In this document: positions 4,988 to 63,526 of the stretch, in pieces | Layout: the number at the start of each line of letters is the position of its first letter | Position numbering within the stretch: the first letter of the stretch is position 1 | Source of the DNA: Nannobrachium achirus | Lineage: Eukaryota; Chordata; Actinopteri; Myctophiformes; Myctophidae | Direction of reading: 5' to 3' | Assembly (NCBI GenBank): GCA_963921795.1 | Contig: OY997640.1 | Span: forward strand, 15,373,186-15,437,185 | Length of the DNA stretch: 64,000 nucleotides | Position numbers and translations under genes: made by a program | The notes under the pieces: generated by a model | What the model saw: the letters and a program-made list of their open reading frames with translations, nothing else | What the model was told of the DNA's origin: nothing | The model's database searches: none

Positions 4988-5172
4988 AGGGTTCCCAAAC
5001 TTGTAAGGCCGTGACCCCCCAACATAATCATATTTGAACTGGGGACCCCCCACCCTGACGAGCTCTTGGAATTGTAGGAGTTGAGGCATTGTATTTACTT
5101 GGAGTTGCTGGTGAATATTGTGAAAATAGCAGATCTACAAGCTCACAATGCCTCGCAATGCAATGCGAGGCG
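4988..5172. mobile_element. hAT-like MITE fragment with half of the hairpin cassette
   Basis: The sequence resembles the element at 14580-14962: a CCGTGACCCCC-type end leads to GTGAAAATAGCAGATCTACA at about 5120. The 5' arm runs to the GC-rich tip CCTCGCAATG and the return arm stops after CAATGCGAGGCG, so the right half is missing. No target duplication is visible. Confidence 0.6.
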
Positions 5173-5502
5173 ATTTGCTTGACTCATAGCTCGCTCGGGA
5201 GTGCCTCTCGTGGCTCAAGTCTGCTTTAGACAGGTGCGACTCCTCTATCGTTTGAACAGGGTTTTTTTTTTTTTTTACAGTTTTCTTTTACAACTTGGGT
5301 TTAAGAACGGCACCAGAAGACTGGAGGGGTTACGATAGGCCGGTTGATGCAAAGGAGAATCATAACCTTCCGGTTCAGCAAATCCTTTGTCCCATGTACA
5401 ATCAGTCTCTGGAATAAAAAGACAGCAGCTAAATACATGTTTCCTTGTATGAACATGTTTTATGCACTTTTTGTAACGATGATTGTATAGTTTGTTTTTA
5501 TT

Positions 5503-5770
5503 GCGACTACAGGTCGCAATAAACACAGTCGACTATGAAAACGGTCACAGCTTGTCAGTAACACCTGTCCAAGGCCAGGGTAACTCCTCGATTGTGACAT
5601 CACATTGTGACATCACATTCCGTCCTTGTCCCTTGTAGGCAGCATGGAGATCCCTGATGTCGTCAGCATTAGCTTGGAATGCCCATATATGGACATATTG
5701 TGTGAGTCTCATGTGGTCTATAACATAAGACATCTATGATGTCAGACGTCAGTCATATCCATATTTGGCG
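5503..5770. repeat. CArG/CRE-like dispersed repeat, fragment
   Basis: The fragment opens with a TTGCGAC...GTCGCAA inverted end (5508-5520) like the one that closes the insertion at 34371. It contains TGACATCA twice near 5595-5612 and a perfect CArG consensus CCATATTTGG at 5759-5768. This combination recurs at 33.3-34.4, 45.0-45.3, 59.9-60.6 and 62.0 kb. I see no coding sequence. Confidence 0.55.
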
Positions 5771-6560
5771 GCACTGGCGCCCCAGTAGTCAAGCGCAGGT
5801 CTTGATGACCCTCCCTGGAGATGCCTTCTGGGACGTCTGGTTTCCTGGTTCAACCTCTGCATGTCCCATATACTCAGAGAGGACGAGAGAGGATTGCTAA
5901 AAGGGTGGTACACACCTTTTCAAATAATGGCTTCTGGTGCCAAGCTACCCACCTGTACAGCGCTCGAACTGCTAGCCTTGAACCGTGCGTAGAATGCGTT
6001 CAGATCGTTTGCGAGTGCAGCGTCAGCACTCTCCGTCGATGGCTGCTTGCCCTTATAATCCCGCAATTTATTTTAAAGACCCTCGCCATGCACACACCTT
6101 GTGCGTTAGTTACTCTTTGACTTTGTCCTCATAAAAGTGCTGTGCGATGTCACTGGGCCGTTTCTGTCTTTTACATGCTGCTCTAGGTATATTACACTAT
6201 TATCCCTACTCCGCATATAAACACGTTTTCGTTATTACTAATATGGTTGACCGAAGTCCCTATTAGCCTATTTTCTGTTTTCTGGGGAAAGGTTTCTGGG
6301 GAAAGGTTTCTCTGGAAATAGCTGGTTATTATAGCCGACAACAAATTGCAAGCTTGTCGATCACCCATCGCCCATCACCCATCACCCATCGTCGTGTCCT
6401 GCAAATCTTCTCTTCCTCTGTGTCACCTCGTCTAACTTCTCTGGAGATATTCCTGGATTGAGGGAGCTGATATCTGATTACCAAAAAGGACAAAACAAGG
6501 AGGAAAACAAGTTACTCTGTATGCAGACAGTCCTTAAACCAAGAGCAGCAATGTTCTAAT
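5771..6560. other. Unassigned stretch, nothing recognised
   Basis: Apart from a short run of CCCATCACCCATC near 6362-6390 I find no repeat borders, gene or RNA here. The reading frames present are short and show no family resemblance. Confidence 0.4.
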
Positions 6561-6561
6561 G

Positions 6562-7030
6562 CAGGGGTCTTCAACAGGGGGTCTGGGACCCCTAGGCCTA
6601 GGGGGTCCTCATAGTTACTACAGTCCTACAAATCTTTGTGTGATAGAAACCTTTTTCTCCTTTTTGTATATTAACCACTTGAACCCATAGCATCCATATT
6701 CTAAGAACTTTAGCCAAAAATAGCAGATCTACAAGCTTGTAGATCGGCTATTTTCAGCAAAGAGGTTTGGTGAAGAGAGGGAAAAGAGCAGACTAAGTAC
6801 AGAGTGAAAGGTCAAGTTTATTAAGTATTGACGGTTCAAGTGGTTAAATATCTGAAAACACTTGAAAAGAGCTTGTAGATCTGCTATTTCCACTACTTTT
6901 TGAAAGTGTTTGAAACTATATTAACATTTCTCAACATGGAAACGATTATGACAATTATGCAAAATAATTGCGATTACCTCAAATAATTGCGATTAGACGA
7001 TTATTATGTAGTAATTGTGACAGCCCTAAC
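6562..7030. mobile_element. Two truncated hAT-like elements, each with hairpin cassette sequence
   Basis: CAGGGGTCTTCAACAGGG at 6562 matches the left end of the complete element at 63077-63526, and the minimal hairpin at 6716-6755 (TAGCAGATCTACAAGCTTGT then back) lies at the equivalent position. Its right end is missing. A second element reads in from the right: CAGCCCTAA near 7022 and AT-rich sequence lead back to a half hairpin (GAGCTTGTAGATCTGCTATT) at 6868-6893. The two appear to be broken against each other. Confidence 0.6.
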
Positions 7031-7411
7031 GCCGGGACCCAGGGGTAAGTGGGTGTGACGTCAGGACAAACTCTATTGCGTTGTTCAGTAACACCAAAGC
7101 CCGCTCTGTATACTCCTCAGGATGAATACAACAGCCGTGCATAATGAAAGAGATGATTTCCCGCAAGAGAGATGAAAAGGATGACGTATAGGATCAAGAG
7201 ATACTCCAGATCAGGCTATACAGCACGAACGCGAGACAGCTGTGATTTCACATGGATTACACCAGTTATTGTTGTTTGACACAGAACAGATGCCAATTCC
7301 TTCCACAAACCCACACAGATTTCCTGGATTCCTTCTCCATTCTATCCCTTACGAACACAGAGAAAGAGGTATGCTGCAGGTGATCACCTGGTGCGATATA
7401 TGGTGGGAGAG

Positions 7412-7908
7412 CAGGGGCGTCAATTGGGTATGGCAGGGGTATGCAGCTGCCATACCCTGGGTCCAGGGGGAAAATAAAAGTGCAAATTAAAAAAATGCAA
7501 AATTTAACAAAATGGCCACTTTAACAAGGTATTATAATTATATTCTCCACACTTTTATTCTCCCCATCTTGACAAGATGGTATATTCCCAGGTTCCACAG
7601 GTGCAATGCATTATTGTTAAATGTGGCACGTTTACTAACATGCTAAGTTTTGCTGCACTTGAACAACCATTCGGGGCTGCCATACCCAGCCCAAGAAACC
7701 GCAGAAATCTGTGTAAAAAACTGACAAAACTAGTTTTTATTTCAGACATTTTGAAAATAGCCGATCTACATGCTCACAACGCCTCGCAGCGCGAGGCGTT
7801 GATCTGCTATTTTCACAATAGAACCATGTTATACAAAATGTAATGCCTCTTTTCCATGAGGACTCCCATCTTTGCCATACCCTAGCTTTTGCTGAACTGA
7901 CGCCACCG
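7412..7908. mobile_element. hAT-like MITE, complete, 8-bp TSD
   Basis: The element starts CAGGGGCGTCAATTGGGTAT and ends GAACTGACGCCACCG. It is flanked by a perfect 8-bp duplication TGGGAGAG (7404-7411 and 7909-7916), the hAT signature. The hairpin cassette sits at 7751-7817 with a CGCCTCGC/GCGAGGCG tip. Related copies are at 19379-19596 and 32842-34567. It encodes no transposase. This copy serves as the uninterrupted reference for the insertion inside 32842-34567. Confidence 0.88.
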
Positions 7909-8051
7909 TGGGAGAGAGCTCTCTCTCTAAAAAAAAAGAACATCACAGTGTCTCAAATCACATTTATTTTTACCCCATTAAGACCATGAGATTGATTCTA
8001 AAAAATGTCTTCTAAATCATAACAGTTTTCTGAAAAAATATGTTTCTATGT

Positions 8052-8370
8052 CGGTGGTTCTCAAACTTTTTTTTAAATAAAGGACCCCCAGAATTAGAGG
8101 TATATTTTGTTATAGATTCAAAGATTTGAAAATACAAAAGCGGCAGAGGCTCAGGGGTAGAGTTGCCGTCTTAGAGCGTTCAGAGTTAGTGTCGAAGCGT
8201 CCTTGAGCAAGACTCTGAACCCCTAGTAATGTAATTCAGTATCATAATATCATCGATTTTCCAAAAATAGCAGACCTACAAGCTCATAGCGCAGCACTCG
8301 GTGCCGCGCTATGAGCTTGTAGATCTGCTATTTTTGAATAGCTAAAGTATAAAATAATGGTTGAAGTGGT
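8052..8370. mobile_element. hAT-like MITE with hairpin cassette and a SINE-like insert
   Basis: GGTGGTTCTCAAACTTTTTT at 8053 is the hAT-type end seen also at 18900 and 12390. The hairpin at 8263-8336 has near-perfect arms and a GCACTCGGTGC tip. Between them, 8131-8225 reads like a tRNA-derived SINE: GGCTCAGGGGTAGAGTTGCC resembles an A box and a CCTTGAGCAAGACTCTGAAC segment follows. The right border was not fixed. Confidence 0.55.
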
Positions 8371-8463
8371 TAAAAGAGACACATTTTTGTGTTTTTACTC
8401 GCGATCGATTGCACACTTTTGGGCGTTGTGATACCGGGCAGTGATGGTCGATGTGGTCTGGTC

Positions 8464-9077
8464 TTAAAGTGATACAGTAGTTCACCTATTTTTGACATAA
8501 AGCTGTGTGAAATACTTGCCATTATAACAGTGGTTAAAAATGTATTAATTGATTACCAGAGTCCCGTGGTCAGAGTTCTGGTCAGTTTCTATAGAATATT
8601 AAGTAGTTCCAATGGGGTGGGGGCCATTTGGCGTGGCCCAATCATTGAAAATAGATTAATCCACAAAACTAGCATCATTTGTATTGTTGGCCTATTTCTA
8701 CCATATAGAGCCACGTTTCGTTCTGATCAGCTGCCTGCAAAGCACCTTGTTTTGGGGAAATACGTTGCAGCGGCGTGGTGATACTGGACACAAAAAATAG
8801 TACCATGTGACAGAGGGGTCAAAGTTGAACGAAAGTTGGTCTATTTGGTAGAAATAGGTCAACAATACAAATGAAGCTAGTTTTGTGGATTCATCTATTT
8901 TTAATGATTGGGCCATGAGCCCCTGCCAAATCACCGGAACTACTTTATATTCATCTAAAACTGACCAGAACTCTGACCAAGGGACTCTGGTAATGGATTA
9001 ATACATTTGTAACCACTATTTTAATGGCAAGTATTTCACACAGCTTCATGTCAAAAATAGGTGAACTATCACTTTAA
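8464..9077. mobile_element. TTAA-flanked foldback element (piggyBac-like MITE)
   Basis: TTAA at 8464-8467 and 9074-9077 bracket termini AGTGATACAGTAG... and ...CTATCACT. The inverted repeats are very long: roughly 240 bp on each side align as reverse complements, around a unique centre of about 130 bp (8705-8835). Transcripts would fold into a long hairpin. TTAA duplication is the piggyBac hallmark; no transposase is present. Confidence 0.8.
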
Positions 9078-9332
9078 GTCACCGTCGTATTCCTGACCTT
9101 TTCCCCCCCGGCGCCGTTCTCTTCTGGAGAGGCGCCGTTGTCATTAGTTGTGTCGTTGTCTGTTCAGATAGGATCTCTGTATGGCCATGAAGACGTATAT
9201 TATATAGGAGATCAGAAACCAGCTTCTTCTTCTTCTTTCTGTGTCTGATGAATATAATCCAATAATGTCCGGAAGTTCACTACATCAGATATATCAGTTG
9301 TTGTCTTTTCATGTCAACGACGACCCCCCGAA

Positions 9333-9430
9333 ATGACATGTGTTCGGCTGCGGACCTCCCATCTCAAAAAGATGTTGAGCCAGGGACCCCCGGAAGCAAA
9401 GATTTTAGTTAAAATGTTCAGAAAAATCAC
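9333..9430. mobile_element. hAT-like MITE fragment
   Basis: GCGGACCTCCCATCTCAAAA followed by CAGGGACCCCCGGAAGCAAA matches the interior of the GGACCCCCATCTCAAAA family at 12435-12500 and 18935-18975. No termini or hairpin remain. Confidence 0.5.
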
Positions 9431-9794
9431 ACCTGGTGTGAAGTGAGCGGTGCTATTCATGAGTTAATTTCATCAAGCGTCCCGCGAAGCTTGGCCCGAT
9501 ATGTGACCCTGGGGTCGTACGACAAACTTTGAGCGTTTTGTGCCTAGACGTAGGCCAGATGTAGGCCACATGTAGGCCATGCTTCAGAGCCCGGACAAAG
9601 CCAGATGTTGGAGCTTAGCTCCTTCCAGGAGCACCTCTCAAAAATACACAAATATATTGATAGCAATATTGCCGTGACGAGCGTTGCAAAATTTGCCCCA
9701 CCCGATAGGCACAGAATCATAACTCATATTCCCAGCGCCGCTGCTACAATGACGCGCACAACGCACTGTGCGTCAGATTCTTACTTTTGCATTG

Positions 9795-10105: not shown

Positions 10106-10381
10106 AAGCCTGGTCTTTGTTTAAAAATAGAACGGATGGCATCCTACGTCATTTCGTATTCAAAACGGACTACACTTTGGCAGGAAACACAAAACCGGAA
10201 ACAGTTTCAACCCGGTTAGCGCATGCGCAAGTAGTTTGCGCATGCGCAAGTAGTTTGCGCATGCGCAAGTAGGGGTTAAAACTGTTTCTATTTTGGTGTT
10301 TCCTGCCAAAGTGTAGTCCGTTTTTTACTACAGAATTACGTAGGACGCCATCCGCTCCCGACCAGATCAAAAGCCCAGGCT
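10106..10381. mobile_element. Long-TIR MITE with a central 19-bp tandem repeat
   Basis: The outer ends read AGCCTGG and CCAGGCT. About 100 bp at each end align as inverted repeats, including GGCAGGAAACAC and AACACCAAAATAG-type matches. The middle (10219-10272) holds three copies of GCGCATGCGCAAGTAGTTT. A 12-bp-arm hairpin (10085-10114) overlaps the left border. No clear target duplication was found. Confidence 0.65.
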
Positions 10382-10959: not shown

Positions 10960-11165
10960 TACCGTATATTGACTCGGTCGGGCAAAAAACACGTGTCCAA
11001 AACGGTTACTTTCCAGGATTGAAAAACAGCCAAAGTAGCAGATCTAACAAGCTCGAAACGCGGCGCGAAGCAACGCGTTTTTCGAACTTGTTATTGTAGA
11101 TCTATTACTTTTGACGCTTTCGCGTGACGCTGCAGTGTGATCGAGTGAGGTGGTAAATTTACGGG
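10960..11165. mobile_element. CTGTCGGG-family MITE with hairpin cassette
   Basis: The left part CGGTCGGGCAAAAAAC and GTCCAAAACGGTTACTTT match the CTGTCGGGTGGAAACC end at 40301. The hairpin at 11032-11112 uses the AAAGTAGCAGATCT variant of the arm and a CGCGGCGCG tip. The following GACGCTTTCGCGTGACGCTG also recurs at 40382. Confidence 0.65.
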
Positions 11166-14579: not shown

Positions 14580-14962
14580 CAGTTGTTCAGGCCGCGACCC
14601 CCAAAATAATCATGTTTTAAATGGGGATCCCCCATCCTGACGAGCACTAAGGCATTACATTTTTTATATCACGGTTCTATTGTGAAAATAGCAGATCTAC
14701 ATGCTCACAGCACCTCGGAACGCAAGGCGTTGTGAGCATGTAGATTAGCTATTTTCACAATTTCTCCCTCTAATATTTGACAATTTGGCCAATGTTTAAT
14801 TTGTCATTTCAGAGGTATTAAAAAGTCCTTAAATTGACACTTTAGAAAAGTGCAGATATGTTGGTTTGTTTACTGTTGATTGAGAAAACAGTGTTGCACA
14901 TTAATTTAATCATCCGGGGACCCCCCCAAATTCATCCGACCCACAGGTTGAGAACCACTGTG
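14580..14962. mobile_element. hAT-like MITE inside a pentanucleotide array
   Basis: The right end GGTTGAGAACCACTG is the complement of the classic hAT start CAGTGGTTCTCAACC; the left end CAGTTGTTCAGGCCGCGACC is a shortened version. The hairpin at 14679-14761 has arms ATTGTGAAAATAGCAGATCT and complement with the ACATGCTC/GAGCATGT variant. (ACAGT)n on both sides indicates insertion into that array. Confidence 0.75.
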
Positions 14963-18702: not shown

Positions 18703-19170
18703 AAGCCATTTAGCCCTAAACTCAAATCTGTGTTACTTTATAGATTTAACTATTACAAAATAGCAGATATACAAGCTCACAGCTCACACGCTGTGAGCTT
18801 GTAGATCTGCAATTTTTGAAAAATCTTTAACATTTGTGCAAGTCTTTGAATATTTTTGACCCGATTCTATAAATGTCTTCTAAATCCTTGTTCTAAATCA
18901 GTGGTTCTCAAACTTTTTCATGTCAAGGAACCCAATCTCAAAATATGCTGTTCTAGGGACCCCCCAGAAGCAAATATTTTAGTTACAAATGTTTTTGAAA
19001 AGATATTCAAAGACTTAAAAAAAAAAAAAAAAAAATCTAGATTTTTCAAAAATAGTAGATCTACAAGCTCGCAGAGCGGCACTCTGTGCGGCGCTGTGAG
19101 CTTGTACATATGCTGTTTTTCAATTGTTAAATAATTCTAATAATAATTATGTGTCTAAAAGGGTTAATTC
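18703..19170. mobile_element. Nested hAT-like MITEs with two hairpin cassettes
   Basis: CAGTGGTTCTCAAACTTTTT at 18899 is a clear hAT-type left end that lies within or against an older relative beginning near 18703. Hairpins occur at 18755-18819 (tip CACAGCTCACACGCTGTG) and 19043-19124 (tip GCACTCTGTGC). A poly(A) run separates the second hairpin from the family interior. Confidence 0.65.
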
Positions 19171-21535: not shown

Positions 21536-21920
21536 TATCTATGGATGGGACCATTATGAAATTGTCATATCACGATTATTGTGACAAAAGAAATCACAAT
21601 TTACGATAGCGATAATCAAAATCCATTATCCTGGGGCGGAACATTAGCCAAAAAATAGGTGATCTACAAGCTCTTGTAGATCGCCTATTTTTTGACATTT
21701 GATAGAGAGTGAAAAAAAGACTGTAGGTATATTATAAGTACCTTTTACTAATTATAGAGGGTTTAAGTGGTACCAGATATGCAGCTCGGCAAATAAAAGG
21801 TGAATTGATCCCAGTGCATGACGGAGGACCATGTCACAATATATTAAATCTCCACAATATGAATATTGTGAGTGTTTTTTATCACGATAAATGATAATAT
21901 CGCGTATCGTCCCATCCCTA
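21536..21920. mobile_element. hAT-like MITE with TAGGGATGGGA-type ends
   Basis: The right end is CGTATCGTCCCATCCCTA; the left end TATCTATGGATGGGACC is an altered version. GTCAGGAC (21528-21535) and GTCAAGAC (21921-21928) match at 7 of 8 positions. A short, clean hairpin (21647-21695; AAAAAATAGGTGATCTACAA and complement) sits in the middle. Confidence 0.7.
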
Positions 21921-22510: not shown

Positions 22511-22664
22511 GACAAATTGATAAAGAAACTGCAAGTGCCGCGATTTTATTTTTGAGTAAAATAGAAGATTGATTGATCAAGATTGTTGTTGACCAAAAAA
22601 AGCATAGGCCTATACATGACGATATGGTATAAGACACGAAGAAGGTTGAGATCTTATTGCCATT

Positions 22665-22994
22665 GGCTGGGTTTCCCAAAGCGATTTTAGCCCATCGTAA
22701 CTCACGCATGGTCGTAGAGGCCAAGCCCCGACCGCCATGTTCCCGTGTTTACATGGGTTCGATCGCTTTCTGTTTTCCCATGTATTTCCTGTCTTTCCCC
22801 ATGCCCTATTTAGACAGGTTTGAGACTTTATTAAGCACTTTGTTTGTGAAATATGAATGTTGGTATAGCTGTAGGGGGCTAAATAAGTCGCTCTGCCCGA
22901 ACCCATGTAAACCCGGGAACATGACGGTCAGGCCTTGGTCCCTACGACCTTGCTTGAGCTTCAATGGGCTAAAATCGCTTTGGGAAACCCAGCC
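22665..22994. mobile_element. MITE with GGCTGGGTTTCCC inverted ends
   Basis: GGCTGGGTTTCCCAAAGCGA at the left is answered by an exact complement at the right, with at least 30 bp of terminal inverted repeat. Internal CCATGTTCCCG / CCGGGAACATG blocks also pair. Only a 3-bp ATT duplication is possible, so the superfamily is left open. Confidence 0.72.
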
Positions 22995-23609
22995 ATTGTG
23001 ATTGTGTGTACATACACTGAGTGGAGGTGGGGTGCAGGTAGCAGAGATACTGTATACAGTAAAATATAAATAAATGCATTCATACAATGACAGTTGTATG
23101 CATTCTAATGCAATGGTTGACGGTTATCAACTGATAGTGCACCAGGGACCACCCTGATGATGACCATGGTGGATGGGGATATGGGCTACCGGTATGTTTA
23201 GTTTTCTTTTTTTCTTTCTTTTCTTGACTTTCACAGCCTATTCCTGGCTATAGTGGACAGGGACAGAGTCTGCATGTCATATTCTGTCTGGGAAAACAAT
23301 AAAATACTCTAACTTAGTTGCAAAAGGTAAAAAAAGGGGGAGGGGGAGAAAAGAAACACTGCACATTAAGGTCTGGGAATTGTGCCTGCATGCATCGCAC
23401 ACCAACTCATCCAGAACTCCACACGGGGCCGTGTTTCATATACATGTGCCTCAATGTCAATGTGAATGTCACTACTGTGGTAGACTAGTTCAGCTCCAAG
23501 TACTTTTTGAAATGAAGCAGAGGCCTCTTCAAAACACCACTGCTAATAATGATGATAGACTTTCATCCTCAGTCCTCTTATCACACAAATACGTCAGTTC
23601 TATACTATA

Positions 23610-23735
23610 TCACTGTTGGGTGGAAACCGCTCCGTTTAAAACAAAATTGAATGAAATTAAAATAGACGATCTAAAAGCTCACAACGCGTTGCAGCGCAGC
23701 TCATTTTGAGCTTATAGATCGGCTATTTTTGCTAC
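23610..23735. mobile_element. CTGTCGGG-family MITE fragment with hairpin
   Basis: CACTGTTGGGTGGAAACCGC begins it, and the hairpin at 23659-23730 has arms AAAATAGACGATCTAAAAGC and complement. Confidence 0.6.
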
Positions 23736-24329: not shown

Positions 24330-24915
24330 TAGATGTGGGACGTTCGCGAACAAATCGAGTCTTTTGAACGGCTCTTTGAAATGAACGATGGGATCCGGTT
24401 CGCAGTATAGGGAGCCGTTCCTTTCTAATGAACAAGTGGTGGAAAAAGTACTCAAATTCTTTACTTACAGTATAGTAAATACAAGTATCAATACTGCATC
24501 GTAGAAATATTCTGCCACACATTATTAAAATGTAGGCTACTTGAGTAAAAGTACAAAAGTATTGGTATCAAAATGCACTTAAAGTACCAATAGTAGAAAG
24601 TACTCATTATGCAGAATGTCCCATTTCACAAGCAGGTTTTCCAATGAATAAAATCTAGTAAAATCATTTGAAAATAGCAGATCTACAAGCTTAAAATGTG
24701 TCGCGTTGCGACACATTGTGAGCTTGTAGATCTGCTATTTTCAAATGGCAAAAATGTATAAATGGCTGAACTGTACATATGGTTGATTTGTAATTATAAT
24801 AAAAATCTACATAGTAGGCTAACTAACTAAATGAGCCAGTCTTTTGAACGGCTCTTTGACAGGAACGGATCCCAGAGATCTGGCTCACTTCAAGGAACCA
24901 TAAATCCCATCTCTA
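24330..24915. mobile_element. hAT-like MITE with an embedded hairpin, perfect TSD
   Basis: The ends are TAGATGTGGGACG and AAATCCCATCTCTA. GTCCAGAG is duplicated perfectly at 24322-24329 and 24916-24923. AGTCTTTTGAACGGCTCTTT occurs near both ends. Inside lies a GTGGTGGAAAAAGTACTCA element that carries the near-perfect 83-bp hairpin 24665-24747 (tip TGTGTCGCGTTGCGACACA). Confidence 0.85.
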
Positions 24916-26838: not shown

Positions 26839-27108
26839 CTTAGTCGGAAGGAGCAAAGGGGGCTCCTATACATTTACGTAAAAGCCGAAAAAATAGAAAA
26901 AGTGCCCCTCGAAGCTCCTCGAATTTCACGGCAATCAAACGCTGCACTTATGATTTGAGGCGTTTTGTGCGAAATGGGCCACTCCTGCAACCTTTAGATG
27001 CCAATCTTAGCCAATCAGGATGGAATTATGAAACATCGGACAGATCCCTCTTGGTCTTTCTTTTGTATGTACAGTGTAAAATGGCTTATTCCATAAGGCA
27101 GGGGTTTT
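26836..27108. repeat. Local duplicate, filled copy
   Basis: AGCTTAGTCGGAAGGAGC to TTATTCCATAAGG matches 25240-25437 with extra sequence near 26880-26940. The homology resumes at 27625 on the far side of the hAT-like element. Confidence 0.8.
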
Positions 27109-27624
27109 CAAAGTGGGTGACGGGGCACCCTGGGGTGCCGTGACGGCAGTCCAGGGGTGTGGTGAGATAATTTGATAATGTTTGGAATTTATTTGGACAC
27201 TTGAAAAAATATTGAATATCATTTTAAACTTGAAGCAGTCAGTTCTAACCAAAATGGCTATTATCTCAACGCTTTCCTCGCAACATAATCACTAAAATAT
27301 CGTCACTGTCGGGCAAAAACCTTGTATCTCCAAGTTTCAAGTTTGTACGTCTTTTGGTAAAGCAAGGCCCTGCTTCATCATACTGTACAAGACTGTCGCA
27401 CAAAATTAGTGAAAACAGCCGATCTACAAGCACACAACGCCTCGCGGTTTATAGATGATAAATACAAAACGAACGGTTTTGGACATAAAAGGTTTCCGCC
27501 CGACAACAACTATATGCTATAAATATTAGGTGCTGGGAGTGAAAATTATAATGTAGGTGTGCCTCGGATTAAAAAAATATATATTTATGGGGTGCCCTAA
27601 GACAAAAAAGTTTGGGAACCCCTG
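27109..27624. mobile_element. hAT-like element with perfect TSD and a nested MITE
   Basis: It starts CAGGGGTTTTCAAAGTGGG and ends AAAGTTTGGGAACCCCTG. CCATAAGG is duplicated at 27101-27108 and 27625-27632, and an empty site exists at 25430-25437. A CTGTCGGG-family MITE is nested at about 27304-27508 (left end CTGTCGGGCAAAAACC, right end GGTTTCCGCCCGACAA) and carries a half hairpin at 27410-27448. Confidence 0.9.
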
Positions 27625-29669: not shown

Positions 29670-29899
29670 GTCGGTGCTGGGCCCTGGGTACAAGGATTCA
29701 CTGCGGGCCCCCCATGAATTTTCTACATAGGGGGATTTAAAAAATAGATATATACAAGCTCACAGCATGGCACCGAGTGTCGCGCTGCAAGCTTGTAGAT
29801 CTGCTATTTTTCAATAGCAAAAGTATAAAATAATGAAGCCCCTTCCACCTTGGGCCCTAGTAACTCAGACTCGTCCCACTTTTCCCTTGTGACGCTCCT
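29670..29899. mobile_element. hAT-like MITE with hairpin
   Basis: GGGCCCTGGGTACAAGGATT and CACTGCGGGCCCCCCATGAA, then hairpin 29739-29814 (tip GCACCGAGTGTCGCG), then CCACCTTGGGCCCTAGTAAC and TTGTGACGCTCCTG. This is the 49874-50146 family; its left terminus is eroded. Confidence 0.7.
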
Positions 29900-32841: not shown

Positions 32842-34567
32842 CAGTGGCGTCAGTTCAGCAAAAGCTAGGGTATGGCAAAGATGGAAGTCCTCATGGAAAA
32901 TAGGATAACACTGTTCTATTGTGAAAATAGCAGATCTACATGCTCACAACACATCGCGCTGCGAGGCGTTGTCGCCGTTGTGAGCATGTAGATTGTCTAT
33001 TTCACAATGTCTGGGGGAAAAAAAAAACTTTTGTCCGTTTTTTACACAGGTTTCTACGGTTTCTTGGGCTGGATACGGCAGCCTGGAATGGTTTTTCAAG
33101 TGCAGCTAAACTTAGCATGTTAGTAAACGTGCCACAATTAACAACAATGCATTGCACCTGTGCAGCTGACCTGCGGAACCTGGGAATATACCATTTTGTC
33201 AAGCTGGGGAGAATACAAGTGTGGAGAATATAATTACTAGTAAGACACCCAAGGGTGGAATGCGACCTCAGGGTGACATGCAACCTCGCCCTAAAGGGCG
33301 AGGTCGCGCCAATTCTTGACAATCTGGCCAACCACAGCGTTTCTCTGACGATTCTAGTTGTTGTCATTCTGGGGGGAGTTTGTTCATGTTTTTGTGAGGG
33401 TATCAACCCTAGGAGCTCAGCACACTCACAGAATCATGGCACACTCACAGAATCAATGTTATGCCCATACATGGAGTTCCCTGACTATGTTATGTCAAAA
33501 CATGCCCATATGTGGACATTACCAAATATGGGCATTTCCAGATATGTCCTTAATATTGATAACATTGGGACAGGGATCTCCATATATGGGCATGAAACAT
33601 ATGTTAATTAGTAAAGCCAAGCTTAGGTTTGATGCCTTGGGATTTCTATATTTGGACATAAGTGTGTACCCAATAGGTCATCATCTGGAAAGGTAGGGTG
33701 TAAATCAGAGTAAAGCAGGCTTTTGAGCTAGTTAGGGCCAGAGATTGATGACATCAGAAATCCCCATATATGGGCATAAAGGGATTTTGCTTTTGGGAAT
33801 GCCCATCTATGGCATTTTTATTTTATTTTATCCTTTATTAATAAAAATACATGTATGTATCCATATACATATGGAGTTCAATATTGATGTTTTTGGAGAA
33901 GGTATGTTGTAAATGTATGCTACTTAGTAAGGGGCCTCGGGTTAGATACTCTTTGTATGGCCTCTGGAGGTCCTTGGCGTCGGTTAGTAGTATGCCCAGC
34001 ACATAAGATGTGGGACGTCACAAAGCCTGCGGCCATGTATCATTTTCCATCAGGCCTGTTGGTTTTCACGCTCCAGTGCGGCGTTCATGCGCTGCAAGTC
34101 AATGGCAGACTTGGCAGTCAGACAGACAGCCATTGACTCCGGCCTAACAATGGCTACTTTCTATGACGGTAGTCCCATATGACATGATGGACTGGACTAT
34201 CTCCATATATAGTGTTATCCACATTTCGTGTAGCTGCCCTGTACAGGAAGTGATGTCACAACTCGCTGACATCACACTGACATCACAGAGGCTTCGGAAG
34301 GACGGTCACGAGGCTTCGGACACTCAAGCGACACGATTCTTCAGAGTATATGCGACCTTCGGTCGCAACAATAATACCTTGTTAAAGTGACCATTATGTA
34401 AAAATTTTGCATTTGTAGTTATTTTACTGTAATTTAACAACATAATAACCAGCGCAGATAGACAAAGAGACATTCATGGATTTATATTTAAAAGTGACTT
34501 TTATTTTCCCCCGTGGACCCAGGGTATGGCAGCTGCATACCCCTGCCATACCCAATTGACGCCCCTG
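32842..34567. mobile_element. hAT-like MITE, perfect TSD, split by a 1.1-kb insertion
   Basis: It starts CAGTGGCGTCAGTTCAGC and ends CAATTGACGCCCCTG, with CGTGGAAC duplicated at 32834-32841 and 34568-34575. It is the 7412-7908 family reversed. The hairpin is at 32918-33009 (ATTGTGAAAATAGCAGATCT arm, ACATGCTC variant). Homology to 7412-7908 stops at about 33236 (GAGAATATAATTA) and resumes at 34372 (TAATACCTTGTTAAAG). Confidence 0.88.
33237..34371. mobile_element. Insertion carrying CArG and TGACATCA motifs
   Basis: Its extent is set by the uninterrupted relative at 7412-7908. It begins CTAGTAAGACACCCAAGGGT, has a CGCCCTAAAGGGCGAGGTCG palindrome near 33290, and ends GCGACCTTCGGTCGCAACA. It contains CArG consensus sites CCATATATGG at 33580-33589 and 33764-33773, TGACATCA at 33749-33756 and further TGACATCA-type sites near 34260-34290. 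There is no long reading frame. Confidence 0.7.
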
Positions 34568-35308: not shown

Positions 35309-35580
35309 AGTGTTGAATTCGTCGACCAACAATGTCTAAACTAAGCTAAGCTATGATGACTAAAACGAAGGCTAAATGTATTGACAATTTTGGCAACAAA
35401 TAAAAGCTAGACTAAAACGTCAGGGAGGGACTAGTGGAGAAGAGATACGGTAGAACTAAAAGACAAGTCATTTTATGTTTGGTTGCGCTCAGGTGTTGTG
35501 CTCTAAAAATAGCAGATCTACAAAATCACAGAATGTCACAGCACGACACGTTGTGAGCTTGTAGATCAGCTACTTTCAGC
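35309..35580. mobile_element. hAT-like MITE (GTCGACC family) with hairpin
   Basis: AGTGTTGAATTCGTCGACC and GGGAGGGACTAGTGGAGAAG match 44693-44930. The hairpin is at 35503-35579 with AAAAATAGCAGATCTACAAA and complement. Confidence 0.65.
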
Positions 35581-36136: not shown

Positions 36137-36477
36137 CAAGGGCGTCACAGGGGGGGAGGGGGGGGGGGGGGGGAGTGGGACTGAGTTACTAGGGCCCAAG
36201 GTGGAGGGAGGGGGCCTTAATTATTTTATACTTTAGCTATTGAAAAATAGCAGATATACAAGCTCACAGCGCGGCACCGAGTGCCGCACTGCGATCTTGT
36301 TGATCTGCTATTTTTGAAAAGTCGTGAAAATGTGTGCAAATCTATGTATTTTTTAAGCCAACATTTAATCAAATGTTGCTTCTGGGGGGTCCCTGGAAGT
36401 AAATATTTTGAGACGGGGTCCGTGGCCAAATACATCATTTTGGGGGTCCTTCACATGAAAACGTTTGAGCGACGCTG
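36137..36477. mobile_element. hAT-like MITE with hairpin and a poly(G) tract
   Basis: It starts CAAGGGCGTCACAGGGGGG; a G-rich run at 36149-36172 follows. GGGACTGAGTTACTAGGGCC leads to the hairpin at 36238-36318 (tip GCACCGAGTGC). Then come GGGGGTCCCTGGAAGTAAAT and a TTGAGCGACGCTG end. It is the reverse of the 38752 family. Confidence 0.75.
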
Positions 36478-36507: not shown

Positions 36508-36582
36508 TTTTCAATAATAGCAGAACTACAAGCTCACACTTTGTGCCGCGCTGTGAGCTTGCATATCTGCTCTATTTTTTTT
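36508..36582. repeat. Hairpin cassette
   Basis: TTTTTCAATAATAGCAGAAC and TGAGCTTGCATATCTGC arms pair imperfectly around TTTGTGCCGCG. A (AAAT)n stretch lies on its left. Confidence 0.6.
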
Positions 36583-38751: not shown

Positions 38752-39060
38752 CAGTCGTGAAGGACACCCAAAATGATATGTACGGACCCCCATCTCAAAA
38801 TATTTAGTTCCAGGGACCCCCCAGAAGCAAAATTTGAGTTACAGATGTTCCCTTAAAAAAATACATATATTCAAATATTTGCACATATTTTCACAACTTT
38901 TCAAAAATAGCAGATCTACAAGCTTGCAGGGCTGTGAACTTGTATAGCTGCTATTTTTTAATACCTAAAGTATAAAATAATGTAGGCCCCTCCACCTTGG
39001 GCCCTAGTAACTCAGTCCCACTCCCCCCCCCCCCCCCCCCCTCCCTTTGTGACACCCCTG
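38752..39060. mobile_element. hAT-like MITE with hairpin
   Basis: CAGTCGTGAAGGACACCCAA, GGACCCCCATCTCAAAATAT, hairpin 38898-38959 with a shortened tip, CCTTGGGCCCTAGTAACTCA and TTTGTGACACCCCTG give the complete family order. A poly(C) run (39023-39040) lies before the right end. Confidence 0.75.
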
Positions 39061-39361: not shown

Positions 39362-40045
<684 letters not shown>

Positions 40046-41144: not shown

Positions 41145-41345
41145 AGTAAATTAACACCCTACTCGATCACACATGCAGCATCACACGAAAGCATCAAAAG
41201 TAGCAGATCTCCAAGCTCAAAACAAGTGCGAATTAAGTGGTGCGTTTTGAGCTTGTAGATCTGCTACTTTTGATATATATTTTATTTATTTATAAACACA
41301 CGTAGCATGTGGTTGCTGTCGGGTAAAAACTTTGTATCTCCATTG
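41145..41345. mobile_element. CTGTCGGG-family MITE, reversed, with hairpin
   Basis: ACACCCTACTCGATCACACA and ACACGAAAGCATC precede the hairpin 41194-41273 (TCAAAAGTAGCAGATCTCCA arm). CTGTCGGGTAAAAACTTTGT at 41318 begins a further end of the same family. Confidence 0.65.
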
Positions 41346-44692: not shown

Positions 44693-44930
44693 TTTCGGTC
44701 GACTAAAACTATGATGAAAAATGTTCGTCAACTACTGTACTTCTTTTTTTCACTGACGTAAACAAAATAAAAACTAAGCTATGGTGACTAAAACTACTTT
44801 TATTGACAATTTGTCAGGGAGGGACTAGTTGAGAGGGAGGGACTAGTGGAGAAGAGATCCAGTAGAACTGTTTGGTTGCGCTCAGGAGTTGAGCTCTGAA
44901 AATAGCCGATCTACAAGCTCAGAGAGGAAG
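44693..44930. mobile_element. hAT-like MITE (GTCGAC family), truncated at a half hairpin
   Basis: CAGTGTTGATTTCGGTCGAC and GGGAGGGACTAGTGGAGAAG match 35309-35580. The cassette stops after AAAATAGCCGATCTACAAGC at 44896-44930. Confidence 0.62.
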
Positions 44931-49873: not shown

Positions 49874-50146
49874 CAGGGGCGTCACACCAAATTATGGGCC
49901 CTGGGTACAAGGATTCACTGCGGGCCCCCCATGAATGTTAACTATTGAAAAATAGCAGATATACAAGCTCACAGCGCGGCACCGAGTGCCGCGTTGCGAG
50001 CTTGTAGATCTGCTATTTTTGAAAAATCGCAGATATTATAATAATAGCAGATATCTGCTATTTTTCAATATCTAAAGTTACTAGGGCCCCTCCACCTTGG
50101 GCACCAGTAACTCAGTCCCACTTTCCTACCCCTTTTGACGCCCCTG
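49874..50146. mobile_element. hAT-like MITE with hairpin, perfect TSD
   Basis: It starts CAGGGGCGTCACACCAAATT and ends CCTTTTGACGCCCCTG. ACGGTGCA is duplicated at 49866-49873 and 50147-50154. The hairpin at 49947-50022 (tip GCACCGAGTGC) is followed by a second mini-palindrome AATAGCAGATATCTGCTATT at 50043-50062. It is the reference copy for this family. Confidence 0.9.
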
Positions 50147-50719: not shown

Positions 50720-51052
50720 CAGGGGCGTCACAAGGGGGGGGGGGTGCAGTGGGACTGAGTTACTAGGGCCCAAAGTGGAGGGGCCCTAATTATTTTAGAC
50801 TTTAGCCATTGAAAAATAGCAGATATACAAGCTCACAGCGGGCACCGAGTGCCGCGCTGCGAGCTTGTAGATCTGCTATTTTTGAAATGTCGTGAAAATG
50901 TGTGCAAATCTTTGAATACGTGTATTTTGTAAGCGAACATTTGTAACTGCTTCTGGGGGGTCCCTGGAACTACATATTTTGAGATGGGGGTCCGTGGCCA
51001 AATACATATCATTTTGGGGGTCCTTCACATGAAAAAAGTTTGAGCACCACTG
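50720..51052. mobile_element. hAT-like MITE with hairpin, both ends present
   Basis: It starts CAGGGGCGTCACAAGGGGGG and ends AAAAGTTTGAGCACCACTG. The hairpin is at 50808-50885 (tip GCACCGAGTGC). GGGGGTCCCTGGAACTACAT and GATGGGGGTCCGTGGCCAAA give the family interior. No 8-bp duplication is visible. Confidence 0.78.
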
Positions 51053-59153: not shown

Positions 59154-59307
59154 CCAGCTGGGAGCTGCAGATTACTGAACCTTACAGTAGCTAAGGGATG
59201 GCAACGGTGATAACACACTCCTACCAAGGGATGACAACGGGCATATCGGCTGCTTCAGGAGCTCTGTTTGACCAAGCCTTCTGCTGTTCTGTGGAACGTG
59301 TATGTCT

Positions 59308-59308
59308 G

Positions 59309-59343
<35 letters not shown>

Positions 59344-59355
59344 CACACACACACA

Positions 59356-59452
<97 letters not shown>

Positions 59453-59495
59453 ATACACATACACATACACATACACGCACACGCACACGCACACG
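59308..59495. repeat. Compound (CT)n, (AC)n, (GCAC)n, (ACATAC)n array
   Basis: Blocks run in order: (CT)n, (AC)n, about 15 units of GCAC, (AC)n, then ACATAC and GCACAC hexamers. Confidence 0.95.
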
Positions 59496-59739
59496 AACAC
59501 ACTTATTGGGAGTGCTGTGGTGTGTATGAGTCATAGTATTCATTGGAGTACTCTTTACCATTAAGCAGTTTTGAGCACATTATTGGTTTATTGTCATCAG
59601 TGGATCCTGCATGCTTTTCAGCGCACGCTTTGAAGTGAAGTGAAGTGCTCACAACGTACAATCCTGAGTGTTCCTTTTGACCCTTTGAACCAAAAGTTAT
59701 ATTTTATTATCCTTTTGTTGCTGCATTCAGGTGCATTAA

Positions 59740-59741
<2 letters not shown>

Positions 59742-59810
<69 letters not shown>

Positions 59811-59812
59811 CA
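59742..59812. repeat. (GA)n microsatellite
   Basis: About 50 bp of GA pass into GACAGA variants. Confidence 0.96.
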
Positions 59813-59869
59813 CCATATCTAACAGTATATAACAATATTAAGCCCCTATCTAACAGGAATTCATAGACA

Positions 59870-60500
59870 GACATGGGGGCATAAAGGGATTGTATGTTGT
59901 GATGTCATGGGAACCACACTAATATAATCCCTTTTATGCCCATATATGAAGATCCCTGATGTCATCAATTTTAAGCCAATATTAAACAGGACTTCATATG
60001 GGAATGCCCATATATGGGGCAAGACAGCCCATATCTGTGTGGCTGGTTCAGACAGGGATCTCCATGTATGGGCATAAGAGGGATTTTATGTATGATGTCA
60101 GATGTCATAGGATTTTCACATAACGAATAACTAAGCAAGTAAGCATGTTTGGGGTCTCACAGCATATCTCCATATACAGTACATGGATCTCCATATATGG
60201 GTACCAGGGGTCTCCATATATGGATAACGCGTCCGATATACATCACTGGCCAGAAGGCCAAGACATGGCGCGACCTCGCCCTTCAGGGCTTGACTTGAAT
60301 GTGAAAATCCAATAAAAAAATTACGTTTCCCAAATATAGAGATGACTGACATCATATGTGTCTGATGTCATACAGGACAACATGAGAGACTGACACAGTA
60401 TGTCCATATATGGGCATTCCAAGACATGGGCTTAATATCGATTACATCAGGGATCTCCATATATGGGCATAAAAGGGACAAGTATGGAATGGTTACCGGT
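59870..60500. promoter_or_regulatory. CArG-rich dispersed repeat upstream of the zinc-finger gene
   Basis: Perfect CArG consensus sites CCATATATGG occur at 60008, 60191, 60214, 60404 and 60457. ATGTCA or TGATGTCA half-sites stand near most of them. GGCGCGACCTCGCCCTTCAG (60268) matches the complement of the palindromic block at 33290 in the 1.1-kb insertion. CArG boxes are the binding site of serum response factor; whether any is bound here is unknown, and the repeat may be purely transposon-derived. Confidence 0.6.
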
Positions 60501-60512
60501 ATGTTATATTGA

Positions 60513-60589
60513 TGACATCACTCTTGCCCAAATATGGAGGTGTGAGTGTTGTGAGTGATGTCATACCAAAGCTTAAGCATATATAAATA
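60513..60589 (+). promoter_or_regulatory. Proximal promoter of the zinc-finger gene
   Basis: TGACATCA (60513-60520) and its complement TGATGTCA (60556-60563) flank a perfect CArG box CCAAATATGG (60528-60537). A TATA box TATAAATA follows at 60582-60589. This spacing predicts a start of transcription near 60610-60620 and a 5' leader of only about 30 nt. The same block is repeated at 61995-62106. Inference: the site combination resembles serum- and cAMP-responsive immediate-early promoters. Confidence 0.65.
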
Positions 60590-60645
60590 GGCGTGAAGAC
60601 ACTCCAGAGTCCAGACTTCTCCACTTAGAGAAAAACTACAAGGAG

Positions 60646-61392
60646 ATGGAGAGAACGCATTGTCCGGCCTCGACAGAACCTACAACTCTGTCCCCATCAC
60701 AGTCCATGCATAGCAGCTGCTTTGACCATGAACCGCCACTCCTGGAAGGAGTGTGCTCTCGATCTTCCCAGACTAAGCTCGGCTGTTCTGAGTGTACCGT
60801 CACATCTCATCCGAGCCACGATCACCCCTACTGCAAAACGATGGGGAACGATGGACAAATCTGTTCAGAAGCCAGACAGCGAACAGTCACCATCCGGGAA
60901 CAAGGAGACCGACTGAAATCTCCAAGTCATCAACGGTTTACAGAGGTTATAACTCGACCAACAGGAGATGTAAAGAAACATGAGAAGATTCGCACAGGAA
61001 CGATAACTCACGTCTGTAAGCAGTGTGACAAAAGTTTCAGTAGGTTAGATCATCTGAGAAGACACCAGCGTGTCCACACGGGAGAAAAACCCTTCCCCTG
61101 CGAACATTGTGACAAGAGTTTCAGTCAGTCACATAGTCTCAAGGCACACCACCGTCTCCACACGGGAGTAACACCTTTCCACTGTAACCTATGTGACAAG
61201 AGTTTCACCAGGTTAGGTGTCCTGAAGACGCACCGGCGTATCCACACCGGAGAAAAGCCTTTCGACTGTACACTATGTGGCAAGAGTTTCAATCACTTAG
61301 GTAATCTGAAGGTACACCAGCGTATCCACACGGGAGAAGAAAAAAGAAAACGCTCTGCTGTAAACAGTAGTGTTGTAGTCGAGTCCACCTAA
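60646..61392 (+). CDS. C2H2 zinc-finger protein, four fingers, single exon
   Basis: The 248-residue frame is intact. Residues 1-120 are Ser/Thr/His-rich and show no KRAB, SCAN or BTB domain. Four classical C2H2 fingers follow, with zinc ligands C124-C127-H140-H144, C152-C155-H168-H172, C180-C183-H196-H200 and C208-C211-H224-H228. Linkers are TGEKP between fingers 1-2 and 3-4, and the unusual TGVTP between 2-3. Helix positions -1/2/3/6 read R-D-H-R, Q-H-S-A, R-G-V-T and H-G-N-V. A basic KRKR lies just after the last finger. By family it is a nuclear, sequence-specific DNA-binding protein; the target is unknown. The start ATG follows AAGGAG about 55 bp after the TATA box. Whether it is an old retrocopy, one of a tandem family, or a young species-specific gene cannot be decided here. 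Four fingers is short for fish C2H2 genes, so loss of fingers is possible. Confidence 0.85.
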   Translation: MERTHCPASTEPTTLSPSQSMHSSCFDHEPPLLEGVCSRSSQTKLGCSECTVTSHPSHDHPYCKTMGNDGQICSEARQRTVTIREQGDRLKSPSHQRFTEVITRPTGDVKKHEKIRTGTITHVCKQCDKSFSRLDHLRRHQRVHTGEKPFPCEHCDKSFSQSHSLKAHHRLHTGVTPFHCNLCDKSFTRLGVLKTHRRIHTGEKPFDCTLCGKSFNHLGNLKVHQRIHTGEEKRKRSAVNSSVVVEST

Positions 61393-61430
61393 AGCAAGTT
61401 CAAGTCTGAGATAAAAAAATTTAAAAATGA

Positions 61431-61446
61431 AATAAAATAATAAATA
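61431..61446 (+). terminator. Poly(A) signal of the zinc-finger gene
   Basis: AATAAAATAATAAATAA gives AATAAA 39 bp after the stop codon, predicting a 3' UTR of about 60 nt. The whole transcript would be close to 850 nt and unspliced. Confidence 0.6.
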
Positions 61447-61898
61447 AGTACTGTGGAGACAGACACGAAACATGGAGAGAGTATAGGAAAGTGGCATAAT
61501 GTAGCAAATGGTCTGGTCAGTGGGTATTATCCCTTTTCTTTCTTTTTCAGTAGTTGGCCTTCGAAATGGTCAGTAGCTGAGAGGAGGAATAGGGACAAAC
61601 TGAACTCCATCATGGTTAACCCGGGGAAATCTCGCTTTTGCGAACGCCCATCATTTGGACCGGAGGGTTAGCGACTCACTCCACGGAGGTGAAGGTTATG
61701 GTGAGGGTTAGAGTCGGGTGTCGAAAAGATGACATGTAGTAACAGCGACACGCTCCCGGTTAACCCCTCCCATCCACTCTATGGTGATCTGCAGGACAGA
61801 GCGAGCACCTTCAGCCAGAGGCTCACTCTCCCTCCGAAAATGCATACGTAAGGGATAACATCTCGCTCAGCGGTGATTATCTAGTGATAGGAGACCGA

Positions 61899-61946
61899 CA
61901 GGTTGATATGCCACCGACGCGATAGCAGAGGTGGCATATCAACCTG
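61899..61946. repeat. 17-bp-arm inverted repeat
   Basis: CAGGTTGATATGCCACC (61899-61915) and GGTGGCATATCAACCTG (61930-61946) are exact complements around a 14-nt loop. It lies between the gene and the second promoter block. Confidence 0.8.
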
Positions 61947-61985
61947 ACGTTTGTTTATTTTTCCTCCACTGTCATGGTGATGATC

Positions 61986-62106
61986 TTATATTGATGACAT
62001 CACTCTTGCCCTAATATGGAGGTGCTCACATGTTGCTAAGCATGCATGGCAACCAACTGTGTTGTGAGTGATGTCAGACCAAAGCTCTGCTCTGCATATA
62101 TAAATA
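61986..62106 (+). promoter_or_regulatory. Second copy of the zinc-finger promoter block, without a gene
   Basis: TGACATCA (61995-62002), CArG box CCTAATATGG (62010-62019), TGATGTCA (62069-62076) and TATAAATA (62099-62106) appear in the same order as at 60513-60589. 34 extra bases (CTCACATGTTGCTAAGCATG...) sit between the CArG box and the second half-site. No zinc-finger frame follows to the end of the window. Confidence 0.7.
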
Positions 62107-62229
62107 GATTAGGGGGCAAACCAAACCAAGTGCAGCACAGTTATATCTACTGTAGATACAACTTTAGTTACTAGTATACTTTGTAGATTTATTGAAAAAC
62201 ATAATTACCCACTTCAACCCTACATACAT

Positions 62230-62400
62230 TTTGTCCATTTGAAGATAGCCAATCTGAGAGCTCACAATGTGTCACATTGATGCCAATACATTTGTAGTTT
62301 GTAGGCTACTTTACTTTACTTTAAGTACATTTTGAATCCTAGGCTTTTACTTGTAACAGAGTATTTCTACATTGCAGTATTGATACTTTTACTCAAATAA
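62230..62400. mobile_element. hAT-like fragment with half hairpin
   Basis: GAAGATAGCCAATCTGAGAG at 62237 is a diverged left arm. GTAACAGAGTATTTCTACAT and TGATACTTTTACTCAAATAA match the GTACTTTTTCCACCACTG family. Confidence 0.5.
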
Positions 62401-62559
62401 AATAAAATAAACATTTTTTCGCTTGTTTCACCTGTGTTGCTCCTGTCCCCTTTGTCCCTAATTCCCTAGTCTACTACAGTAATACCCCTGACTGCCTGGG
62501 TTTGCTCCTGGGTGACTGCCTGGGTTTGCTCTGAGACTGTGTTTGACTTCACAGCCCTT

Positions 62560-62971
62560 TGTGTAAGGTGTACTTCAGTTCCTGTTCATATCCCTTTGTG
62601 TAAGGTGTACTGAGTGTGTAAGGTGTACTTCAGTTCCTGTTCATATCCCTTTGTGTAAGGTGTACTGAGTGTGTAAGGTGTACTTCAGTTCCTGTTCATA
62701 TCCCTTTGTGTAAGGTGTACTGAGTGTGTAAGGTGTACTTCAGTTCCTGTTCATATCCCTTTGTGTAAGGTGTACTGAGTGTGTAAGGTGTACTTCAGTT
62801 CCTGTTCATATCCCTTTGTGTAAGGTGTACTGAGTGTGTAAGGTGTACTTCAGTTCCTGTTCATATCCCTTTGTGTAAGGTGTACTGAGTGTGTAAGGTG
62901 TACTTCAGTTCCTGTTCATATCCCTTTGTGTAAGGTGTACTGAGTGTGTAAGGTGTACTTCAGTTCCTGTT
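62560..62971. repeat. 55-bp minisatellite, about 7.5 copies
   Basis: The unit starts CCTGTTCATATCCCTTTGTG and contains TAAGGTGTAC twice. Copies at 62581, 62636, 62691, 62746, 62801, 62856 and 62911 look identical by eye, so the array is very young or homogenised. Confidence 0.97.
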
Positions 62972-63076
62972 GGGCAAAGTAAAGACTTGTTTGGCTTCAT
63001 TCCTTCTTTCCTGTGCATTGATTTCCACATTTGGGTGCTTGCCTCGTTTTGGAGAGTCCTGACCAATTGGTTAAAG

Positions 63077-63526
63077 CAGGGGTCTTCAACGTTTTCAGGC
63101 CAAGGACCCCTTAGCTGAGAAAGAGATGAAGCAGGGACCCCCACTAGTATTGTATAAAATTGTGTTGCAGATTAAAATGTTCATAGATTTCTAAGACAGC
63201 TTAGACTTGTTTGACAGCACTGTCATCATATTGGCGTAATGTGTATTTTCAGACGTTTAACCACTTGAACCGAACAAATACTTAGTCTGCTATTCTTCTC
63301 CCTCTACAAACCTCTTTGCCAAAAAATAGCAGATCTACAAGCTTACAACGCCTCGCGCTGCGAGGCGTTGTAAGCTTGTAGATCTGCTATTTTTTGGCTA
63401 ATGTTCCACTCAGAATAGGGATGCTAGGGTTCAAATGGTTAATGTAAAAAACAAAGATTTGGCGGCCTCCCTGTAGCAACTCTGAGGACCCCCTAGGGGT
63501 CCCGGACCCCCTGTTGAAGACCCCTG
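63077..63526. mobile_element. Complete hAT-like MITE with perfect hairpin and TSD
   Basis: It starts CAGGGGTCTTCAACG and ends GTTGAAGACCCCTG. GGTTAAAG is duplicated at 63069-63076 and 63527-63534. The central hairpin has two exact 39-bp arms (63318-63356 and 63360-63398) around GCT, the best-preserved cassette in the window. It has no coding capacity. Confidence 0.93.

Follow-up and report, generated by a model that had tools for sequence, protein, structure and literature searches.

A palindrome shared by several families of hAT-like non-autonomous elements in the Nannobrachium achirus genome

How one palindrome comes to lie inside transposable elements whose ends differ is the question raised by a 64,000-nucleotide stretch of the Nannobrachium achirus genome (GCA_963921795.1, OY997640.1:15,373,186-15,437,185, forward strand), hereafter the window. 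Positions without a prefix are window coordinates, L numbers designate genome loci and numbered C labels genome contigs (single letters are element families); the genome searched comprised 1.66 Gb in 564 contigs, window included. The shared palindrome is real, abundant and unusual. The reading that we prefer, with confidence about evenly balanced between acceptance and doubt, is that it constitutes a conserved central module of many hAT miniature inverted-repeat transposable elements (MITEs), passed on within each family and swapped between carriers through recombination or template switching. Single cases demonstrate such exchange, which may be general, and the module may have a function.

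The palindrome spans about 80 bases. Its arms usually measure 34 bp and enclose a 3-nt loop, although some copies are shorter or lack the tip. The canonical geometry is 71 bp from outer core end to outer core end, with 31 nt between the cores and the 3-nt loop among them, and this spacing was found in 32 of the first 50 genome pairs among the matches listed. As the sequence-only reading of this DNA had claimed, the core recurs across the window: its 20-mer has 53 matches there with at most 3 mismatches, compared with 0 in 100 shuffles, and the exact core has 149,964 matches in the genome, the reversed control having 0. The proposed figure of about 45 places holds only when single arms are counted, arm pairing with at most 5 mismatches yielding 22 hairpins and 19 lone arms (41 places); for hairpins alone the count is 28, by covariance model. 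That model, which had been suggested as a check on the whole genome, was built from 24 hairpins and run on the window and on a 200-kb genome sample made up of one 10-kb stretch from each of the 20 contigs C1-C20. It recovered the 28 hairpins in the window (E <= 0.01, rows merged by hand) and 55 in the sample, counts that include seeds lying within the searched sequence (6 of the 28 window hairpins, and many of the seeds overall) and, for the sample, a tandem duplication in L026 taken twice. The resulting density of approximately 275 hairpins per Mb corresponds to approximately 4.6×10^5 genome-wide, by extrapolation only, and the window is approximately 1.6 times richer than the sample. The same sample contains 93 arms with at most 3 mismatches, and both 14-base arms are found exact, 20-45 nt apart, at 10,200 places in the genome.

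Two biases have to be kept in mind when reading these and the following counts. Finding hairpins by the 20-base core favours copies that retain it, and A/B carriers are over-represented because 12 loci were chosen with an A query. Furthermore, some hairpins decay beyond the reach of the arm scan, as in L046, where the hairpin was missed at up to 5 mismatches and recovered on flank comparison; "no hairpin" therefore means none by the arm scan, unless the flanks were compared too. Rfam yielded no match in the window at the gathering score, and the core 20-mer had none in viral and prokaryote collections.

All carrier families with duplications of 8/8 or 7/8 look like hAT non-autonomous elements, with the 8-bp target-site duplication (TSD) and the short terminal inverted repeat (TIR) starting with CAG or TAG by which hAT elements are recognised. 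A scan for near 8-bp duplications and matching ends, which required starts of CAG/TAG or CAA/TAA, found an element around 50 of 167 hairpins or arms; because the same scan also passes 37 of 300 random places, single weak matches mean little. A separate, stricter scan of carriers in the window imposed no CAG/TAG start. Seven families combine a TSD of 8/8 with clear TIRs, namely A (CAGGGGCGTCAC), C (CAGGGGTCTTCAAC), D (CAGGGGTTTTCAAA/CAGGGGTTCCCAAA), E (TAGAGATGGGA), F (CAGGGGCGTCAATTGGG), I (TAGGGCTGTCACGAT) and K (CAGAGCCCTGCA), of which E, I and K are each known from one complete copy (I at L024:9437-9823; K, 1,128 bp, at L027:7339-8466). Since A and F have the same first 11 TIR bases, these amount to six end types; the families H (TAGGGATGGGACGAT) and J (CAGTGGTTCTCAACC) have 7/8 duplications. 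The claim of one core under differing ends is thus upheld. Transposases of the hAT type are plentiful in the genome, with at least 150 scored PF05699 matches (10 loci examined of the 150 matches listed). The carriers and hairpins of the window are the following.

6717..6754: hairpin without tip, in a C-type element starting near 6562 (arm pairing, sequence inspected)
7412..7908, + strand: family F element, TIR CAGGGGCGTCA, TSD TGGGAGAG (8/8), termini read from the sequence; hairpin at 7754-7813
8262..8336: hairpin, 94% complementary; no carrier ends found
14679..14761: hairpin of the ACATGC variant with J-type flanks (inverted-repeat and arm-pairing scans, flank comparison)
18757..18816: hairpin, the first of a pair around a B-type fragment (arm pairing)
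19045..19123: hairpin, the second of that pair (inverted-repeat and arm-pairing scans)
21540..21920, + strand: family H element (TATGGATGGGACC...GTCCCATCCCTA), tipless hairpin at 21652-21691; no TSD seen at this copy
23659..23729: hairpin near a CTGTTGGG repeat (arm pairing); no carrier ends found
24330..24915, + strand: family E element, TIR TAGAGATGGGA (10/14), TSD GTCCAGAG (8/8); hairpin at 24665-24747, 95% complementary
27099..27624, + strand: family D element, TIR CAGGGGTTTTCAAA/CAGGGGTTCCCAAA, TSD CCATAAGG (8/8), enclosing a truncated hairpin (arm at 27412-27431) as well as the CTGTCGGG inverted repeat
29740..29810: hairpin in a single-hairpin A-type element (sequence inspected)
32842..34567, + strand: family F element of 1,726 bp, TSD CGTGGAAC (8/8), sequence read; hairpin at 32924-33003
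35506..35576: hairpin in G (35309), a candidate family whose ends are not established (arm pairing)
36237..36321: A-type hairpin, the first of two, with 36514-36576 as the second (inverted-repeat and arm-pairing scans)
38904..38957: hairpin within an A/B composite, its tip shortened (arm pairing, sequence inspected)
39741..39813: A-type hairpin (inverted-repeat and arm-pairing scans)
41193..41274: hairpin near a CTGTCGGG repeat (inverted-repeat scan); no carrier ends found
49874..50146, + strand: family A element, shortened between its two hairpins to a length of 273 bp, with TSD ACGGTGCA (8/8); hairpin at 49945-50023, full-length relatives having two
50813..50882: A-type hairpin in an element starting near 50720 (arm pairing, sequence inspected)
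63077..63526, + strand: family C hAT MITE of 450 bp, TIR CAGGGGTCTTCAAC (14/14), TSD GGTTAAAG (8/8), hairpin inside
63315..63401: hairpin with 42-bp arms and a 3-nt loop, 98% complementary (DNA fold -50 kcal/mol, z -17.4)

Several assignments made earlier from the letters alone change accordingly. Positions 21536 and 24330, taken for one family, belong to the separate families H and E. The CTGTCGGG repeat, described as marking a family that does not look like hAT, lies inside a hAT element where carrier ends are visible, being internal to D at 27099-27624; a 1-mismatch form is present in L024 and L012, the repeat is not evident in L004, and no termini were recognised by the carrier scan and inspection at 10960, 16970, 23610 and 41145. 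For CAGTGGTTCTCAAAC of B, proposed as a carrier's own termini, the carrier scans found no element with both its own ends; in the full-length A copies read, a B end is present between the two inverted hairpins. Inside another A element (L035 1813-1858) the hairpin core recurs as short tandem repeats (AAATAGCAGATCT).

In families A and C the palindrome belongs to the element and is copied with it on transposition, with the 8-bp duplications at the outer ends, and the same is likely for the other families. All 40 scored genome copies of family C contain the hairpin, a proportion favoured by a query that itself contained it. The variants of the hairpin for the most part track the family. In the set of 108 paired hairpins, the A tip was found in 43 whose flanks include an A/B one and in 1 that is unassigned; the D variant belongs to 3 hairpins of D and 1 unassigned, ACATGC (on one or both arms) to 4 of J and 2 of F only, and the A-type GATATAC to 38 with an A/B flank. 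This tracking also speaks for simple descent from one old hAT element (or from autonomous ancestors), the ends and interiors having diverged beyond recognition and the hairpin having stayed under strong constraint, an account that we regard as possible but rather doubtful in view of the comparisons between families given below.

Could the palindrome instead be a parasite that inserts itself into other elements, as had been proposed? Such behaviour would be in line with carriers that are otherwise mostly unrelated and with the existence of lone arms and of hairpins lacking recognisable carrier ends. Yet direct repeats of at least 6 bases beside 24 hairpins numbered 0, 0 and 1 at three offsets, compared with chance means of 0.8, 0.9 and 1.4, and neither the junctions of family D nor this repeat scan revealed a clean empty site with a duplicated target. 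A hairpin-less D copy does exist (L023:8266-8470), and when it was used as a query, 40 of 40 scored matches (the query itself included) out of 3,744 candidates were contiguous across the site. With at most 2 mismatches each, however, the hairpin-less D junction occurs at 7 genome places and the junction of hairpin arm and D flank at 44,930, so the hairpin is the normal state of D. Moreover, only 2 of the 40 scored hairpin-less matches, one of them the query, are among those 7 places; the hairpin-less copies thus look as if each had arisen by its own imprecise deletion, a fate to which palindromes are prone. The hairpin as an insertion in D was rejected as a candidate, the hairpin-less copies sharing no single empty site. 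Together with the hairpin in every scored C copy, these results make self-insertion very improbable, and a module longer than the hairpin, shared by F and J, argues in the same direction.

Families F and J differ in their TIRs and mostly in their interiors, and have the ACATGC hairpin in common (the J-ended L031 and L025 carry ACATGC on one arm). On one side of the hairpin they are alike over a 36-bp flank, two comparisons giving 32 and 34 matches out of 36, and beyond it over only 3 and 2 of 12; on the other side the likeness covers about 11 bp. That a variant and its flank recur beneath differing ends tells against simple descent. Hairpins of different families are also joined to one another in single cases. 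L026 (1255-7073) contains a tandem duplication of approximately 3 kb whose junction falls within a hairpin bordered by C sequence to one side and by H sequence to the opposite one, the matching half being supplied by the upstream H element. Over 2.8 kb, most of the unit, the two copies share 98% identity. The arrangement fits one event of unequal crossover between hairpins of two families. Recombination, one of the routes offered in the sequence-only reading, is therefore seen as one way of sharing, in single cases (the L026 junction, the F/J module and the A/B composite).

Homology continuing beyond the hairpin had been named as the sign of simple descent, and part of it is there. A second box outside the hairpin, GGTTNAAGTGGTTAA, is present with at most 3 mismatches in 13 of the 102 non-redundant flanks, where the background gives 2.6 on average and 6 at most; as it occurs in several families, the shared module is longer for some of them and an older common descent is possible. 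On the other hand, only 34 of 5,151 flank pairs score above 99.9% of the null, compared with 5 expected. When whole carriers were compared with the hairpin masked, 4 of 250 pairs exceeded the largest of 266 shuffle scores. Two of these pairs, L027:7339-8466 (K) with L025:1960-2866 (J) and the D element at 27099-27624 with L031:97-953 (J), are weakly similar beyond the hairpin.

Ends and interiors also part company elsewhere. C ends are found on another, hairpin-less interior, with 66 and 78 terminal bp in common with the window C copy. An apparent autonomous family C was rejected, its 633-aa transposase belonging to an element with its own TSD, CTACTTAT, nested in a hairpin-less C-ended element; the arrangement lies at L051 1499 to L049 3119 on contig C13, the nested hAT having the TIR TAGAGCTTAGA and the host element the TSD TTCTATAG. 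Approximately 130 and 188 terminal bp of K are in common with the transposase-bearing loci L041-L045, of which L041 shows both K ends and L042-L045 only the 3' part; the K interior was not found in these loci (compared in L042-L045 over the 3' part only), save for hairpin matches outside the element. Both the C and the K comparisons speak against simple descent. A point in its favour comes from L046 (3047-3125) and L047, where a decayed hairpin with both D flanks lies approximately 1.2 kb 3' of a hAT transposase exon, in a comparison whose stretch stops short of the element ends; L048 diverges just before the D-type hairpin region.

DNA folding of 4 hairpins gave -35 to -50 kcal/mol, with z from -11.6 to -17.4, and among 24 hairpins with differing flank pairings the mean pairwise identity is 75% for the hairpin, 61% for the tip and 29% and 34% for the adjoining 12 bp. 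The two arms remain complementary while their sequence changes: 83.3% of the stem cells are paired, and both sides changed in 21 of 40 pairs (83 cells), values that no shuffle out of 500 reached on any one of five measures. In a control, shifting the partner along by 1-3 columns lowered the paired cells from 83% to 30-47%. Compensating changes include that from AAGC to ATGC and the two tip types, and bases immediately outside the hairpin pair too, in a family-specific manner. Quasi-palindrome correction uses one arm as the template for rewriting its partner when the DNA replicates; the matching of the arms may reflect either this process or selection of the structure.

The best-kept segment on both arms is TACAAGCTCACA, which is 90% identical in the left arm and whose last bases fall beyond the 20-mer used for hairpin finding. 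Its conservation would suit a functional cis-signal (for transposase or host-protein binding, cruciform formation or replication) that the families acquired, or had selected, independently, the shared sequence then reflecting the binding protein; so would the two hairpins of full-length A, each approximately 75-86 bp from an end. Across the carriers, however, the hairpin may lie anywhere from 75 bp off an end to the middle of the element, it is missing from some D copies and from certain C-ended and K-ended ones, and independent origin of so long a match is implausible without exchange, so that we consider this explanation unlikely.

The preferred reading, a central module inherited and exchanged, would work as follows. 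On transposition the palindrome travels with its carrier, as shown for A and C and likely elsewhere, with 8-bp duplications at the outer ends. A broken element repaired from another carrier, or recombining with it, at or near the palindrome could then place new ends on the old module, and the arms might be held matched by hairpin-templated correction during replication. The segment TACAAGCTCACA on both arms may be retained as an aid to the spread of the carriers, perhaps as a binding site for a host protein or the transposase, a helper role that is unproven. A different account would make the palindrome a selfish domain that belongs to no single family, passes from one hAT family to another when recombination or template switching takes place at its hairpin, corrects itself from its own template and raises the copy number of the ends it acquires, as a DNA-transposon counterpart of the central domains of short interspersed elements (SINEs); this we regard as tentative and, on balance, somewhat unlikely.

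A number of observations weigh against our preferred reading. The joining of new ends to the module is not seen in progress. Among the 108 paired hairpins, 75 of which have both flanks assigned, only 2 combine flanks from two named families (L026:3955-4025 and L038:389-419). One hairpin with the A-type GATATAC variant has a C flank. L026 is one event and may be an ordinary ectopic crossover between repeats; its H half beside the junction is only 82% identical, with 40 gaps (BLAST), and a 0.1-kb insertion separates the copies. Among the masked-carrier pairs above the shuffles, E-E and A-A/B are of the same type, K-J and D-J being unexplained. Given the hairpin 3' of the transposase exon in L046 and L047, D could be a plain deletion derivative of a hairpin-bearing autonomous element. 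The 24 hairpin representatives do not stand for 24 independent families (7 have A/B flanks, 3 C and 2 I). Finally, within four C copies the hairpin is 92% identical, compared with 86-88% for the interior and 98% for one end; a hairpin barely more alike than the rest of the element is as expected of copies decaying neutrally after insertion.

Apart from the palindrome, a 271-aa open frame encoding several zinc fingers of the C2H2 type (Pfam zf-H2C2_2 and zf-C2H2) occupies 60577-61389 (+ strand) and is the only one with a domain among the three window frames scanned. At 2469-2563 two perfectly matched 47-bp inverted arms enclose a 1-nt loop and bear no relation to the hairpin core. Two further long inverted repeats, at 22661-22998 (101 bp) and 8634-8915 (84 bp), are 88-90% complementary.

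How non-autonomous elements reach very high copy numbers and how new MITE families arise with unrelated interiors are not well explained. A palindrome present in about seven hAT families and at several hundred thousand places makes testable both a boost to transposition, or recruitment of a factor, and the exchange of interiors. It also holds a warning for repeat annotators, as shared interiors can falsely join unrelated families. Among titles and the beginnings of abstracts, most subscription papers lying outside coverage, none was found that deals with one palindrome common to several hAT families, and a literature text search with the 14-mer GCAGATCTACAAGC returned one paper, on a microalga.

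The central domains of SINEs (CORE, V and Deu) offer a formal parallel, one central domain occurring under different heads and tails, as here under varied termini. SINEs, however, are retrotransposons, and reverse-transcriptase template switching is not an option for hAT elements. Angel, a zebrafish MITE, is described as a palindromic hAT-type repeat (PMC8096273), for which a stem-loop route of insertion at local homology has been proposed (PMC12628747, PMC8096273) and a copy number of 10^3-10^4 given (PMC2579443). It resembles the present palindrome in being palindromic, of hAT type and abundant in a fish genome; to judge by description rather than sequence comparison, it differs in that here a short and far more frequent palindrome lies inside many families. 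Tol2 holds an internal Angel element (PMC8151067) and thus likewise has a palindromic module in a hAT element with other ends, although it is one element and not about seven families. The Xenopus Tc1/mariner MITE miDNA4 captured a tandem repeat (PMC12628747); it too is a MITE that took up an outside module, in its case a satellite monomer, whereas in N. achirus the module is a palindrome found in many hAT families.

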